64,000 nucleotides of DNA from an uncultured Dehalococcoidia bacterium (GTDB lineage: Bacteria; Chloroflexota; Dehalococcoidia; Lucifugimonadales; UBA3495). The position numbers and the translations under genes were made by a program. The notes under the pieces were generated by a model. It was not told where the DNA came from and ran no database searches. It saw only the letters and a program-made list of their open reading frames with translations. Below, in pieces: positions 15,284 through 22,546 of this stretch; the first letter of the stretch is position 1; the number at the start of each line of letters is the position of its first letter. Where the stretch lies: assembly GCA_951813535.1 (NCBI GenBank), contig OX638345.1, positions 447,029-511,028 on the forward strand, in the 5' to 3' direction.

Positions 15284-16069
15284 GTGCCGCGACCGCGCCG
15301 AACCGCCACCGAAACCAGGGCCCAAACGGAAGGGCATGACTCGCCGGAACGACTGTCGCCGGTTACCGAGAACTACCTGCTGTCGCTGTACAAGATGTGG
15401 GAGGACTCGGAGATCCCGACCCTGACACAACTGACGGAAGCGCTGCGTCAACTGCCACCCACGGAGGGGCTGGGAACCTCGGTGCCGTCGGTGGCCGGGA
15501 TGCTGCGCCGGATGCAGAAGCAGGGTCTGGTGGATATCGGCAACGACAAGCGCATCCGGATGACGAGGCGAGGACAGACGGAAGGCGAGAACATCGCGCG
15601 CCGGCACCGGCTGGCCGAATGGCTCGTGGTGAGCCTGCTGGGAATGGAGCTCCACGAAGCCCACATCGAGGCGCACCAGCTGGAGCACGGCATGTCCGAC
15701 GCGATGGAAGCCAAGCTCATGGAGCGGTTGGGCAACCCGACCCACTCGCCCTTCGGCTGGCCGATACCGGGCAGCGGCCCCACGACACCGTCGCCGGGGG
15801 CCATCACCCTGGACAACGCCACCAGCGGAACTGCCTACATGGTCGACCGTGTGCCGGAAGAGGACGCGGAACTGCTCAAGTTCCTGGGCGGCGCGCAACT
15901 GGTGCCGGAGCGCAGGATCACGCTCCTTGAAGGGATGCCGTACCTGGGCGTCATGCAGGTTGAGACGGAGGTGGACCGCATCTCCATCGGGTACAACGTG
16001 GCGCGGCAGATTGTGGTGCGGCCCGTGGAGGTTGCGGACGGCGACCGGGCTACCGGCGGAGACCAATAA
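15284..16069 (+). CDS. DtxR/MntR-family metal-dependent transcriptional regulator
   Basis: 261 residues from a GTG start with GGAGGAAG 5-12 bases upstream. The N-terminal winged helix-turn-helix begins SPVTENYLLSLYKM and includes SVAGMLRRMQKQGL; the dimerisation/metal domain follows with RRHRLAEWLVVSLLGM and HQLEHGMSDAMEAKLMERLG, where His and Glu residues are the usual metal ligands. A C-terminal FeoA/SH3-like segment ends the protein. It would repress iron or manganese uptake genes when metal is bound, possibly including the iron-type transporter genes at 8.3-11.1 kb (inference). The wHTH carries an insert relative to typical DtxR. Confidence 0.85.
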   Translation: MPRPRRTATETRAQTEGHDSPERLSPVTENYLLSLYKMWEDSEIPTLTQLTEALRQLPPTEGLGTSVPSVAGMLRRMQKQGLVDIGNDKRIRMTRRGQTEGENIARRHRLAEWLVVSLLGMELHEAHIEAHQLEHGMSDAMEAKLMERLGNPTHSPFGWPIPGSGPTTPSPGAITLDNATSGTAYMVDRVPEEDAELLKFLGGAQLVPERRITLLEGMPYLGVMQVETEVDRISIGYNVARQIVVRPVEVADGDRATGGDQ

Positions 16070-16122: not shown

Positions 16123-16452
16123 ATGCATAGTCGAGCCATGGAACGCCTCGAGCACGATGATATCCGTGACGCAGCGGAAAAAGCCTGGTGCGCCGCCAAG
16201 CGGGCCACTGACGCGCTCGTTCTTGCCCGGTACGGTGAAGAACCGGAAACGACCGCCCGGACCACGGAAGGTCTGCTGGAGTTGGCCAGCGACATCCCCG
16301 AGGCCGAGACGCTGGTAGGACGTTATTTCACCCGGATCAGTTACCTGCACGGTTCCTGCTTCCACAATGGGATGTGCGGTCGGCACACCGAAAGGCGCAT
16401 TCGAGAGACGGCCGAATACATCGGCGACGCCGAGGGACTGGCCGCGAGGTAA
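16123..16452 (+). CDS. PaREP1/HEPN-like protein
   Basis: 109 residues. The segments DIRDAAEKAWCAAKRATDAL and SYLHGSCFHNG, followed by RRIRETAEYI, fit the PaREP1-type helical family, which resembles HEPN proteins. No ribosome-binding site is obvious; the frame stays open upstream of the ATG with plausible family sequence but no start codon, so the N-terminus is uncertain. HEPN relatives often act with a nucleotidyltransferase partner, which is absent here. The function is unknown. Confidence 0.55.
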   Translation: MHSRAMERLEHDDIRDAAEKAWCAAKRATDALVLARYGEEPETTARTTEGLLELASDIPEAETLVGRYFTRISYLHGSCFHNGMCGRHTERRIRETAEYIGDAEGLAAR

Positions 16453-16515: not shown

Positions 16516-17079
16516 TTACTCGCTGAGGGCGCGGCGCACCTCGGCCCAGCCGTCGGCCATGGAACGCTCGGGGAAATCCGGCAGTTCCGGCTCGGGCAGT
16601 ACCTTCACCGCTACCAGCACGGGGCCGGAGCGGGCCATGATGTCCTCCAGGCCGATGAGGAATTCCTCCAGGTTGTCGAACCGGCAGGCGTGGGCGTAGC
16701 CGGCGCTGCGGGCCATACCCTCGAAGTCCACCCGATCCAGCCCGCGAATGGGCATTCCGTCGGTGGATGAGTGGTCGGCGTCCTCCAGCACGAAGTGGAC
16801 GAAGTTTGCCGGTGCCGCCTCGCCGATGGTGGCCAGGCTGGCGAGGTCGGTGCGCAGGGTGGCGTCGCAGTCCAGCACCAGGATGCGGCGGTTGGGCTGA
16901 GCCAGGGACAGCCCGAGACCGACGGCCGGCGCGCGGTCCATGCAGTCGGTGAGGTCAATGTCCAGCTCGCGCCGGTCGGAGACGTTGTGCCAGTCGCGCA
17001 GGGCGGCGGAGGTCGACACCACCAGCGAGTCCTGGCGATGGTAGTTGATGGCGCGTGCTACTTCGCGAGATGGGATCAT
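16516..17079 (-). CDS. degenerate ThDP-enzyme beta subunit (ComE-like)
   Basis: 187 residues, paralogous to the beta subunit at 17445-18041: both share the order VVSTSAALRDW/VPTMNAGNV, VGLGLSLAQPNRR, LVLDCD and AGYAHACRFDNLEEF. The diphosphate-binding signature GDG is replaced by DCDA and the usual following Asn pair is absent (VLEDADH where the paralogue has LFNNGVY). It probably does not bind ThDP/Mg normally and may be a structural or regulatory partner. The gene is intact in frame. Confidence 0.7.
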   Translation of the reverse strand: MIPSREVARAINYHRQDSLVVSTSAALRDWHNVSDRRELDIDLTDCMDRAPAVGLGLSLAQPNRRILVLDCDATLRTDLASLATIGEAAPANFVHFVLEDADHSSTDGMPIRGLDRVDFEGMARSAGYAHACRFDNLEEFLIGLEDIMARSGPVLVAVKVLPEPELPDFPERSMADGWAEVRRALSE

Positions 17080-17141: not shown

Positions 17142-17360
17142 TCAGTCATCGCTGCTGGTTTCCCGATCCGAATCGCGGCGGGCTTCGGCGCGGCGCTGGG
17201 AAACCATGAGGTACAGGCCGGCGGGAATCAGCACGGCTCCGGGGACGGCCTTCAGGGCATTGCCCTCCACAAAGCCCAGCCATAACAGGTAGAAGCCGGC
17301 GACGACCACGGCCGACGCGAAGAGGCGGCCAACAATGCTGAAAGGGCGGAACTTGGGCAT
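17142..17360 (-). CDS. small two-helix membrane protein
   Basis: 72 residues with two hydrophobic stretches (about residues 9-27 and 36-52) and a charged C-terminus RRAEARRDSDRETSSDD. It lies between the two beta-type ThDP genes on the same strand. No family was recognised. Confidence 0.6.
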   Translation of the reverse strand: MPKFRPFSIVGRLFASAVVVAGFYLLWLGFVEGNALKAVPGAVLIPAGLYLMVSQRRAEARRDSDRETSSDD

Positions 17361-17444: not shown

Positions 17445-18041
17445 CTAGTTGTCGCCGGCGAGGGCGGCGGTGACTTCCTCGTAGGCCTGTTGCGCGGTGC
17501 GGGAGGCGCGGGTGCGGAACTGCACCGGCGTGTTCTCGATCTCGGGCTCCACGGCCAGGTGGATGAACACCGGGCCCTCGGCGGCCAGCACTTCGCTGAT
17601 GCCGGTGGTGAAGTCTTCCAGGTTGTCGAAGGAGAAGACGGCCGCGTAGCCGGCGCCCCTGGCGATTTCCTCCCAGTCGGTGACACCCTCGGAACCGGGG
17701 ATCGGCTGGCCGCCGGTGACGGCGTACACGCCGTTGTTGAAGAGGAAGTGGTAGAAATTCTTGGGCGCCTTGGTGGAGGTGGTGACCAGCGCGCCCAGGT
17801 TCATCAGCAGGCTGCCGTCGCCGTCCAACACCATCACCTTCCGTCCAGGCTGGGCCAGGGCGATGCCCAGACCGACGTTGCTGGCCTTGCCCATGGCGCC
17901 GGAGATCGGCAGGTCGAGGTTCTGGTTGCTGGTGACGGAGGGCAGGCCGAAGCGGACGTTGCCGGCGTTCATGGTGGGGACGATGACAGCGTCCTCGCGG
18001 TTGGTGTCGATGACGCGCACGGCATCGGTGTTGGTGATCAT
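17445..18041 (-). CDS. ThDP-dependent decarboxylase beta subunit (sulfopyruvate decarboxylase ComE-like)
   Basis: 198 residues; start at 18041 with AGGAG upstream. It carries the C-terminal ThDP domain: VLDGDGSLLMNLG followed about 25 residues later by LFNNGVYAVTGG, the GDG...NN cofactor-binding motif. With the alpha subunit encoded just upstream (18134-18646) it would form a heteromeric 2-oxoacid decarboxylase acting on sulfopyruvate, phosphonopyruvate or a related 3-substituted pyruvate. A longer frame runs through here but includes the alpha gene in the wrong frame. Confidence 0.82.
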   Translation of the reverse strand: MITNTDAVRVIDTNREDAVIVPTMNAGNVRFGLPSVTSNQNLDLPISGAMGKASNVGLGIALAQPGRKVMVLDGDGSLLMNLGALVTTSTKAPKNFYHFLFNNGVYAVTGGQPIPGSEGVTDWEEIARGAGYAAVFSFDNLEDFTTGISEVLAAEGPVFIHLAVEPEIENTPVQFRTRASRTAQQAYEEVTAALAGDN

Positions 18042-18133: not shown

Positions 18134-18646
18134 TCAGACGCCGAACTCGGTGCCGATCAGGACGGCCACGGGCCGGTTGAGGCGCTTGGATTCGTCGAAT
18201 GCGATGCTGATGCGGTCGGCGTCGTCGTCGGTCTCGACCAGGTAGTAGTTGATGCCCCAGGCGTGGAGGATGTGCTCGATGAACCGGCCAGCGGAGTCGG
18301 GAGTGGGACCGCGGCGGGTCCAGCCGCGATAGCCGACCAGCATGACCAGGGGCTGGTTGAGGTCCAGGCACAGGCCGCGGATGGAGTCGCCAGCCTCGAA
18401 GATGCCGGTGTTCTGGATCAGGACCACCGGGTTGGCGCCACCGACCCAGAGTCCGGCCGCCACGGCCATGGTCTCGCCCTCGCGGCACACCGGGATCAGG
18501 TCGAGGGTGGGTTCCTCCATCATCATGTTGTAGAGGAAGTTGGTCTCGCTGTCGGGGAGCCAGACAACGTGGGAGACGTCGTTCTTCTTCAGCTCGGCGA
18601 CCAGGGAACCCGGGTGCAAGACAGATTCGTAGACTTCGGTGGTCAT
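18134..18646 (-). CDS. ThDP-dependent decarboxylase alpha subunit (ComD-like)
   Basis: 170 residues; start at 18646 behind GGAG. It is the N-terminal (PYR) half of a split ThDP enzyme: VVWLPDSETNFLYNMM, the conserved Glu in CREGETMAVAAGLWVGG, and LVMLVGYRGWTRRG. It is encoded immediately before the beta subunit with about 90 bases between them, so the two are probably cotranscribed. Sulfopyruvate decarboxylase, a step in coenzyme M or sulfonate metabolism, is the best-known relative; the actual substrate is unproven. Confidence 0.82.
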   Translation of the reverse strand: MTTEVYESVLHPGSLVAELKKNDVSHVVWLPDSETNFLYNMMMEEPTLDLIPVCREGETMAVAAGLWVGGANPVVLIQNTGIFEAGDSIRGLCLDLNQPLVMLVGYRGWTRRGPTPDSAGRFIEHILHAWGINYYLVETDDDADRISIAFDESKRLNRPVAVLIGTEFGV

Positions 18647-20839: not shown

Positions 20840-22546
20840 CTACTGCCCGATCACGTTGAGCAGGGCCTGGCGCTTCTCGTGGCGGACCGCGTGCAGGGCG
20901 CGTTCCAGCGCCGCCGGCACGTCTGCGGGATCCTCGACCCTCTCTCCGTAGCCGCCGGCCGCCTGGCAGATCAGCTCGTACTGGAACGACTGGGACAGCG
21001 TGGTGACCGCGAAGTTGTTGGTCTGCACCGCGTAGCCGTCGGCGTAGGTGCCCCGGGTGGCGCTCTGCACGGCGTTCCAGATGCCGTTGTTCCACACGAT
21101 GGTCAGAATGGGCAGACCCTGGGCGTCGGACACGATGTGCCCGGCGGTGCCGGAACCGAAGATGTACGACCCGTCGCCAACGCAGCAGATCACGGTCCGG
21201 TCCCGGTCGGCCAGCTTCGCGCCCAGCGCCGCGCCAATTCCCCAGCCCAGGCCGCCGGATACCGGCACGCCGAAGAAGCTCCCCGGCTTCCTGACGTCGA
21301 TCTGCACCGCGTCGATGCCCAGTTCGTTGAGCACGATGGTGTCGTCGTCCAGCGCGTCGGACAGGCACCTGGTGAACCACGATTTGCTGATGGGCGTCTG
21401 ATCGCTGGCGGACTGGGCCTGCCGCAGCCAGCCGGCGCGCATCTCGTCGTTGCGACGCTGCCACTCGTCGGTCCGATTCTTGACCGCCGCAACATCGACG
21501 CCGATTTCGCTAACCGCATTGACCAACGCCTGGAGGACCAGCCGCGGCGTGCCGGCGAGGTTCAGGTCCACCTGGAACCCGCGCACCGGATAGCTGGAAA
21601 AGAGCGGATCATCGCCGATGCCGATCACCTGGCATCCTTCGGCGGGCTGATGGCGCTTGGGCGTCCAGGGCACGTCGGCTTCGAGCACCACCACCGCATC
21701 CGCGTCGGCCAGTGTTGGCCCGACGTCGGACCCGGCGTACAGGGCGTGGTTCCTGGGGAAGTTGGCGTACAGCGCCCCCGACTCGAACACCGCCATGCCC
21801 AGCAGCTCGGCCAGTTCCACCAGCGGGGCCACCGCCCGGGGATCCTTGCCGCCGCCCCGGGTGACCAGGATGGGATGGCGCGCTCCGGCCAGCGCGCGGG
21901 CGGCCTGCCCGATGGCTTCGGGCGTGGGCAGACGGTCGCCGGCCTTCTGCTGCCGGGAAGCGTCCCGGTACGACAGGCCGTCGATATCCTCGGCCAGCAC
22001 CTCGCGGGGCAGGGTCAGATAGACCGGCCCGGCCGGCGGAGACTCGGCGATGGCAAAGGCGCGGTCCACCACGCCTTCCAGGTCGGCCCCGTGGCGCAGC
22101 TCGTAGTCCCACTTCACCCACTCGCGCACCATTGCCGCCTGGTCGAAGGACTCCTGCGCCCAGTGGATGCTGCCGTCGCGGGAGCCGCGGGCGTCTCCCT
22201 CGGTGATGGGCGTGCGGCCGGCGCTGAACAGCATGGGCACGTTGGAGCGGGCGGCGTTGACGATGCCCCCGATGGCGTTGGCGGTGCCGGGAACGGTGTG
22301 CACCATCACCACCTGCGGGCGCCCGGTGATCATGGTGTAGCCATGGGCCATGCTCACGGCGGTGACCTCGTGGGGAACCGGGATGGGATGCGGCGCCGGG
22401 AGTTCCTGCACCTGCCGCTTGGCGTAGGCCTCGATGACGGGCGCGAAATCCGTCCCGCCGTTGCCGAAGAAGTAATCGATCCCACGGGAGGCCAGCAACT
22501 CCAGGTAGGCCTCCGCGACGCTCTCCACCGGGGCATGGTTGTACAT
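20840..22546 (-). CDS. full-length ThDP-dependent enzyme (acetolactate synthase / benzoylformate decarboxylase-like)
   Basis: 568 residues; start at 22546 with GAGGA nine bases upstream. All three ThDP-enzyme domains are present: PYR domain with the catalytic Glu in PHEVTAVSMAHGYTMITG, a central domain with PILVTRGGGKDPRAVAPLVE, and a PP domain with VGDGSYIFGSG and IVWNNGIWNAV. This is the domain order of acetolactate synthase and benzoylformate decarboxylase. No acetolactate synthase small subunit is nearby, so a catabolic decarboxylase or lyase is likelier than branched-chain synthesis (inference). Confidence 0.85.
   Translation of the reverse strand: MYNHAPVESVAEAYLELLASRGIDYFFGNGGTDFAPVIEAYAKRQVQELPAPHPIPVPHEVTAVSMAHGYTMITGRPQVVMVHTVPGTANAIGGIVNAARSNVPMLFSAGRTPITEGDARGSRDGSIHWAQESFDQAAMVREWVKWDYELRHGADLEGVVDRAFAIAESPPAGPVYLTLPREVLAEDIDGLSYRDASRQQKAGDRLPTPEAIGQAARALAGARHPILVTRGGGKDPRAVAPLVELAELLGMAVFESGALYANFPRNHALYAGSDVGPTLADADAVVVLEADVPWTPKRHQPAEGCQVIGIGDDPLFSSYPVRGFQVDLNLAGTPRLVLQALVNAVSEIGVDVAAVKNRTDEWQRRNDEMRAGWLRQAQSASDQTPISKSWFTRCLSDALDDDTIVLNELGIDAVQIDVRKPGSFFGVPVSGGLGWGIGAALGAKLADRDRTVICCVGDGSYIFGSGTAGHIVSDAQGLPILTIVWNNGIWNAVQSATRGTYADGYAVQTNNFAVTTLSQSFQYELICQAAGGYGERVEDPADVPAALERALHAVRHEKRQALLNVIGQ

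Follow-up and report, generated by a model that had tools for sequence, protein, structure and literature searches.

A beta-like gene closes a four-gene cassette

The window (the whole 64,000-nucleotide stretch of DNA analysed) encodes on its minus strand a cassette that is transcribed in the order alpha, beta, M and P (Table 1), in which alpha and beta resemble the subunits of split thiamine diphosphate (ThDP) decarboxylases and P is the beta-like gene under study. The start of beta was placed at the ATG at 18041, and not at the TTG far upstream that opens the mechanical open reading frame.

Table 1. Genes of the cassette, in order of transcription, followed by other genes of the window
Feature	Coordinates	Strand	Length	Description
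alpha	18134-18646	minus	170 aa	ComD/RhiE-like; PYR subunit
beta	17445-18041	minus	198 aa	ComE/RhiF-like; canonical GDG...NN; presumed catalytic PP subunit
M	17142-17360	minus	72 aa	small membrane protein; two-helix hairpin
P (pseudo-beta)	16516-17079	minus	187 aa	ATG start; PP-domain fold without GDG...NN
PaREP-like gene	16123-16452		109 aa	archaeal PaREP1/PaREP8 family match (28.6 bits, cutoff 24.4) in a SAR202-type genome
DtxR/MntR-type regulator	15284-16069			with FeoA domain; convergent to P
full-length ThDP enzyme	20840-22480			PRK08327 (NF006203) match, 636.8 bits, cutoff 456

P and beta are identical at 72 of 197 aligned positions (37%; BLASTP E-value 6e-44 in one pairwise comparison), and P matches Pfam TPP_enzyme_C at 30.7 bits (cutoff 21.9) and TIGR03297 with an E-value of 4.8e-23 (81.7 bits, below the equivalog cutoff of 312.5); taken together, these scores put the homology of the two proteins beyond chance. 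The predicted model of P (mean pLDDT 93.6) found its best match among solved structures in RhiF (9iz4_B; Z 24.6, rmsd 2.0, 178 residues), the beta subunit of the phosphonopyruvate decarboxylase RhiEF (PDB 9iz3/9iz4), with which it has the PP-domain fold in common, and the next match among full ThDP enzymes was 9u8q_G, a subunit of an alpha-imino acid decarboxylase (Z 21.1). RhiF is described as working with a separate PYR-domain subunit (PMC12141560), and the account of RhiEF given in section 9 of that paper names two subunits and mentions no pseudo-beta. Two-subunit TPP decarboxylases are reported as rare, with earlier examples limited to the biosynthesis of rhizocticin and coenzyme M (2025, PMC12746152).

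The alpha protein scored 26.4 bits against Pfam TPP_enzyme_N, slightly below the cutoff of 26.8, and residues R55, E56 and E58 of its REGE motif are invariant in 33/33 aligned alphas. Its match to ComD (TIGR03845; E-value 1.6e-22, 80.1 bits) lies below the cutoff of 147.95, as do the matches of beta (114.6 bits) and P (66.4 bits, E-value 2.9e-18) to the sulfopyruvate decarboxylase subunit ComE (TIGR03846) below that of 221.5. Since neither alpha nor beta reaches the cutoffs curated for decarboxylases of sulfopyruvate and phosphonopyruvate, no substrate was assigned from these families. In the structure search with alpha, antibody and DXS chains appearing beside 9iz3_A were taken as likely chance matches. 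The source genome encodes four alphas, every one adjoining a beta, and P is its single additional short beta-like gene.

Alpha, beta and P stand in the same order and on the same strand in 49 of the 53 loci that carry P, 42 of them in the window's family and seven in other families, such that a PYR-domain alpha is encoded with P at each of these. At the remaining four loci alpha and beta are deleted (three genomes, see below) or the contig ends: in G138 it stops after beta, and a different contig carries an alpha whose score resembles that of the window type. An open reading frame resembling a DtxR/MntR-type regulator was also read by eye downstream of P at two other loci (L062 and L063).

The small gene M, absent from the earlier sequence-only reading, lies directly upstream of P in 53/53 loci, and alpha, beta, M and P occur together in 49 of them. 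Its predicted model (pLDDT 84) consists of helices 6-32 and 35-70, and a Pfam search with five M proteins returned no family above its cutoff. The stop codon of M falls between -47 and +119 nt relative to the start of P, overlapping it in 37/53 loci, with the starts of both genes picked by a script that placed the M start too far upstream at one locus (L069). The search pattern behind the 53/53 count was written once M had been seen. As a check, a profile of M, for which 38 of the M sequences found in this way were used, matched 44 of 197 genomes, including all 42 P carriers in that sample. The profile match crosses one stop codon in four genomes (G185, G154, G003 and G046), and a weak additional match lies elsewhere in G130 (E-value 3.4e-4). 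Two reduced genomes, G104 and G111, carry M without P (L184 4342-4518 and L185 3825-4031), next to a gene named by eye as glutamyl-tRNA-synthetase-like, and the stretch fetched around M held no alpha, beta or P. M may therefore have its own job, and its adjacency to P could be an operon habit.

The cofactor motif of P is replaced by a fixed set of residues

In the alignment, SGAMGKAS, LDGDGSLLMNLG and FNNG of beta correspond to TDCMDRAP, LDCDATLRTDLA and LEDA of P, and RhiF has LDGDG and LDNG where P has LDCDA and LEDA. We counted these motifs in 49 P proteins and in the beta of each one's own cassette (taken from 42 genomes of the family in which all three of alpha, beta and P were found and from seven of other families, thus omitting G138 and the three alpha-beta-less genomes), and found GDG in 49/49 betas versus 0/49 P and the second Asn likewise in 49/49 versus 0/49. 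As no internal stop interrupts P in any of the 53 genomes, this bears out the earlier proposal that P is a paralogue that lost the cofactor motif with its frame intact. Two details of that proposal need rewording. GDG was said to have become DCDA, and it is indeed lost, but its middle Asp stays as D72 in 49/49 P, so that the change is to C-D-A; the NN was said to be gone, whereas it became E-D, with the second Asn specifically replaced by Asp (D100). The SGAMG loop of beta is likewise altered, reading TDCMD in P.

The resulting signature of P comprises D42, D45-C46, D48, D72, R76 and D100. Three of these residues replace ones that are themselves invariant in beta (P45 by D42, G48 by D45 and N103 by D100, each 49/49 on both sides), and three replace more variable ones: A49 (46 A, 3 C) by C46 in 49/49, G51 (39 G, 10 S) by D48 in 48/49 and L79 (43 L, 5 V, 1 X) by R76 in 49/49. 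The two glycines of GDG and the SGAMG-loop glycine are Cys/Ser/Thr, Ala/Ser/Thr and Asp, respectively, in all 49 P. A fixed alternative set of this kind indicates that the motif was not lost through random erosion. In ThDP enzymes the motif positions face the diphosphate and Mg. Judged from these substitutions, P probably no longer binds ThDP in the ordinary way and the altered positions would form a new site; acidic residues where glycines and Asn once stood suggest that contacts between Asp and Arg close it or, alternatively, that its ligand is a metal or a small molecule other than ThDP.

P is retained under strong purifying selection

Searching 250 genomes of the order recovered P in 53 (set apart by a score gap, at least 256 bits versus at most 203), namely in 46 of 50 genomes of the window's family and in seven of families f4, f10 and f15. 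The family genomes without P (G175, G547, G549 and G556) are 67-85% complete. In a class-wide search of 393 genomes, no row with the P signature came from outside the order among the best loci listed. Eighteen loci of named relatives are from MAGs labelled SAR202 cluster, Dehalococcoidia or Chloroflexi/Chloroflexota, and it is on these labels that our wording "SAR202-type" for the host rests.

We estimated dN/dS (omega) by NG86, dropping pairs with dS undefined or outside 0.05-2.5, and obtained medians for P of 0.101 in genus g1 (91/91 pairs) and 0.069 in those genomes of genus g6 that have alpha and beta (28/28 pairs; 12/55 dropped in all g6), values to be read with dS near saturation, which biases omega. 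The corresponding medians in g1 and g6 are 0.076 and 0.115 for beta (near those of P), 0.047 and 0.063 for alpha, and 0.114 and 0.146 for M, which is thus also under purifying selection (2/91 pairs dropped in g1 and 14/45 in g6, where 10 genomes were used and one of 11 omitted). Relaxed selection or stop codons in related genomes, which the sequence-only reading had named as signs of decay, were both absent, and its expectation that P is retained under selection holds: P is not decaying in the sampled genomes. Loss of cofactor residues, an intact frame and purifying selection, the marks of a retained pseudoenzyme subunit, were all seen in P, and that it is kept intact beside M points to a new function and not to decay.

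P is not a recent copy of its neighbour

P forms a single clade with support of 100/99 in a 71-row tree, a hand-picked subset that omits, for example, L073_P2 (the longest P branch), L003, L005, L110, L112, L127, L129 and the accessory beta L076_B2. A recent tandem duplication of the neighbouring beta was rejected, as a joint clade of P and that beta gave a p-AU of 0.019, a value to be taken as indicative, since the groups compared had been chosen from an earlier, quick tree of 116 rows (from which duplicate loci and 13 near-identical rows had been removed by hand). A clade uniting P with the accessory betas of alpha-beta1-beta2 operons was not rejected (0.435). The accessory betas, which occur in further families of both the order and the class, resemble P in being an extra beta behind one alpha, but 9/11 of them keep GDG and 0/11 have the DC.D or R76 residues of P. 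On the quick 116-row tree, P and nine rows share a branch (SH-aLRT 83), eight of these being accessory betas from four to five operon types, with L072_P2 counted in; on the more careful 71-row tree, four of the 10 accessory rows included are placed opposite P, and support for the deep splits is weak (73/88). An old origin of P as such a second beta fits these trees, which we regard as a lean rather than a result.

Outside the P cassette the second ligand position is Asn in 25/28 first betas behind an alpha and Asp in the other 3/28, while Asp occupies it in 6/11 accessory betas and in 6/10 betas without an alpha in the fetched stretch (that is, none within about 1.5-3 kb), these loci being the top matches of the P and P-profile searches rather than a random sample. 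In our reading, extra betas tend to lose the metal ligand, and P may be the extreme case of this trend.

These loci hold further variants. SEG takes the place of GDG in 4/28 first betas, namely L072_B1, L131 and two genes of the source genome that stand beside their own alpha (L002 1453-2013 and L003 1510-2076; contig C1 near 4012420 and 1551773). The beta-like genes of L078 and L079 have Asp in place of the second Asn, and a search of about 3 kb around them showed no alpha; at L076, L077 and L080 one alpha is followed by three tandem beta-like genes.

M and P persist where alpha and beta are lost

In three g6 genomes (G157, G146 and G169) the flanks of the locus align with those of sister genomes and M and P are intact, while alpha and beta are missing, with only beta fragments left at the locus in G146. 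No window-type beta was detected elsewhere in these genomes at an E-value of 1e-55. They are MAGs of 87-91% completeness and account for 3/46 of the family's P genomes. P keeps its signature in all three, and its median omega between these and full-cassette genomes is 0.064 (14 usable of 24 pairs, with 10/24 of these and 2/3 of the pairs among the three genomes unusable), compared to 0.069 between full-cassette genomes.

The earlier suggestion of a regulatory subunit of the neighbouring decarboxylase thus survives in part: alpha and beta do accompany P in 49/53 loci, but P is kept, and by the usable pairs not relaxed, where they are gone. The persistence of M and P there argues that the role of P is not limited to that decarboxylase. 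Four alphas remain in G157, three in G146 and a single, distant one in G169 (a MAG of 87% completeness), each adjoining another beta, and this weakens the idea that P simply works with another alpha.

Possible roles of P

By descent, as its predicted PP-domain fold and its TPP_enzyme_C homology indicate, P belongs as a pseudo-beta to the family of ThDP decarboxylases split into alpha and beta subunits (ComDE/RhiEF type). M and P could be made together and interact, which would place P at the membrane, where it might take a beta-like place against alpha or bind substrate or product and so anchor or tune the decarboxylase; alternatively, it may partner a different alpha encoded in the genome, or function on its own as a sensor or binding protein. 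The reading we prefer, and hold with about equal belief and doubt, is that P is a pseudo-beta with a rebuilt pocket that, together with M, may serve the decarboxylase at the membrane as its partner or sensor, in a role that can outlive it. A more far-reaching form of this, which we put forward tentatively and think rather less probable, has the ThDP pocket of an old lineage of second betas rebuilt into a different binding site with acidic residues, Cys46 and Arg76, and M and P forming a new membrane sensor or binding module that usually accompanies a decarboxylase but can dispense with it as a partner. Counting against the preferred reading are the retained D72, the possibility that D100 binds Mg, and the variation of some first betas as well (SEG in 4/28, Asp in 3/28).

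Two other explanations are credible enough to be weighed, both of them somewhat doubtful in our estimation. P might be a non-catalytic second PP subunit (alpha2-beta-beta' or similar) that stabilises or regulates a half-of-sites enzyme, with M incidental; the adjoining alpha and beta, the contrast in p-AU between the accessory betas and the neighbouring beta, and the more frequent Asp at the second-Asn position in accessory than in first betas all speak for it, but it sits poorly with the unrelaxed retention of P in the alpha-beta-less genomes and with the GDG of most accessory betas, which may therefore be catalytic. Conversely, those genomes, the Asp, Cys and Arg residues fixed where the cofactor site used to be and the presence of M at every P locus would suit a P that is a stand-alone sensor or a binder of a small ligand or metal in a membrane module of M and P, neighbouring the decarboxylase through a shared pathway only. 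This is no likelier a role, given the near-strict co-occurrence with alpha and beta elsewhere and the descent of P from subunits that stand with an alpha; moreover, the sole beta at an E-value of 1e-55 in a P-less family genome (G549) shows 55% identity, and the stretch fetched around it contains neither alpha nor P.

We consider it improbable that P still binds Mg-ThDP through a non-canonical motif and is catalytic, as both GDG glycines and the SGAMG-loop glycine (G48) are replaced in 49/49 P, even though D72 is invariant, D100 is a possible metal ligand and SEG betas adjoin their own alpha in the same genome. That P is a copy of the neighbouring beta now in decay, as its lost motif might imply, is rejected for the sampled genomes and hardly conceivable in view of its open frames in 53/53 genomes, an omega of about 0.1, its fixed replacement residues and the rejected clade with beta.

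Regulators have arisen from ThDP enzymes elsewhere: yeast Thi3p is a relative of pyruvate decarboxylase (PDC) and binds ThDP. It acts as a thiamine sensor (PMC4299793). Like the P proposed here, it is a paralogue of a ThDP enzyme turned regulator, but it differs in being eukaryotic and full-length. A cofactor-less beta of the split decarboxylase family was not found in the literature searched, and a term search of three SAR202 papers gave no match to thiamin (PMC6946804, PMC10444878 and PMC11245477).

With its cofactor site swapped for fixed residues beside a presumably catalytic sister, P offers a clear natural case of the reuse of an enzyme fold. On our reading, SAR202-type Chloroflexota would possess a decarboxylase system of four genes that is linked to the membrane, and the three genomes that keep M and P without alpha and beta make an independent function of P directly testable.
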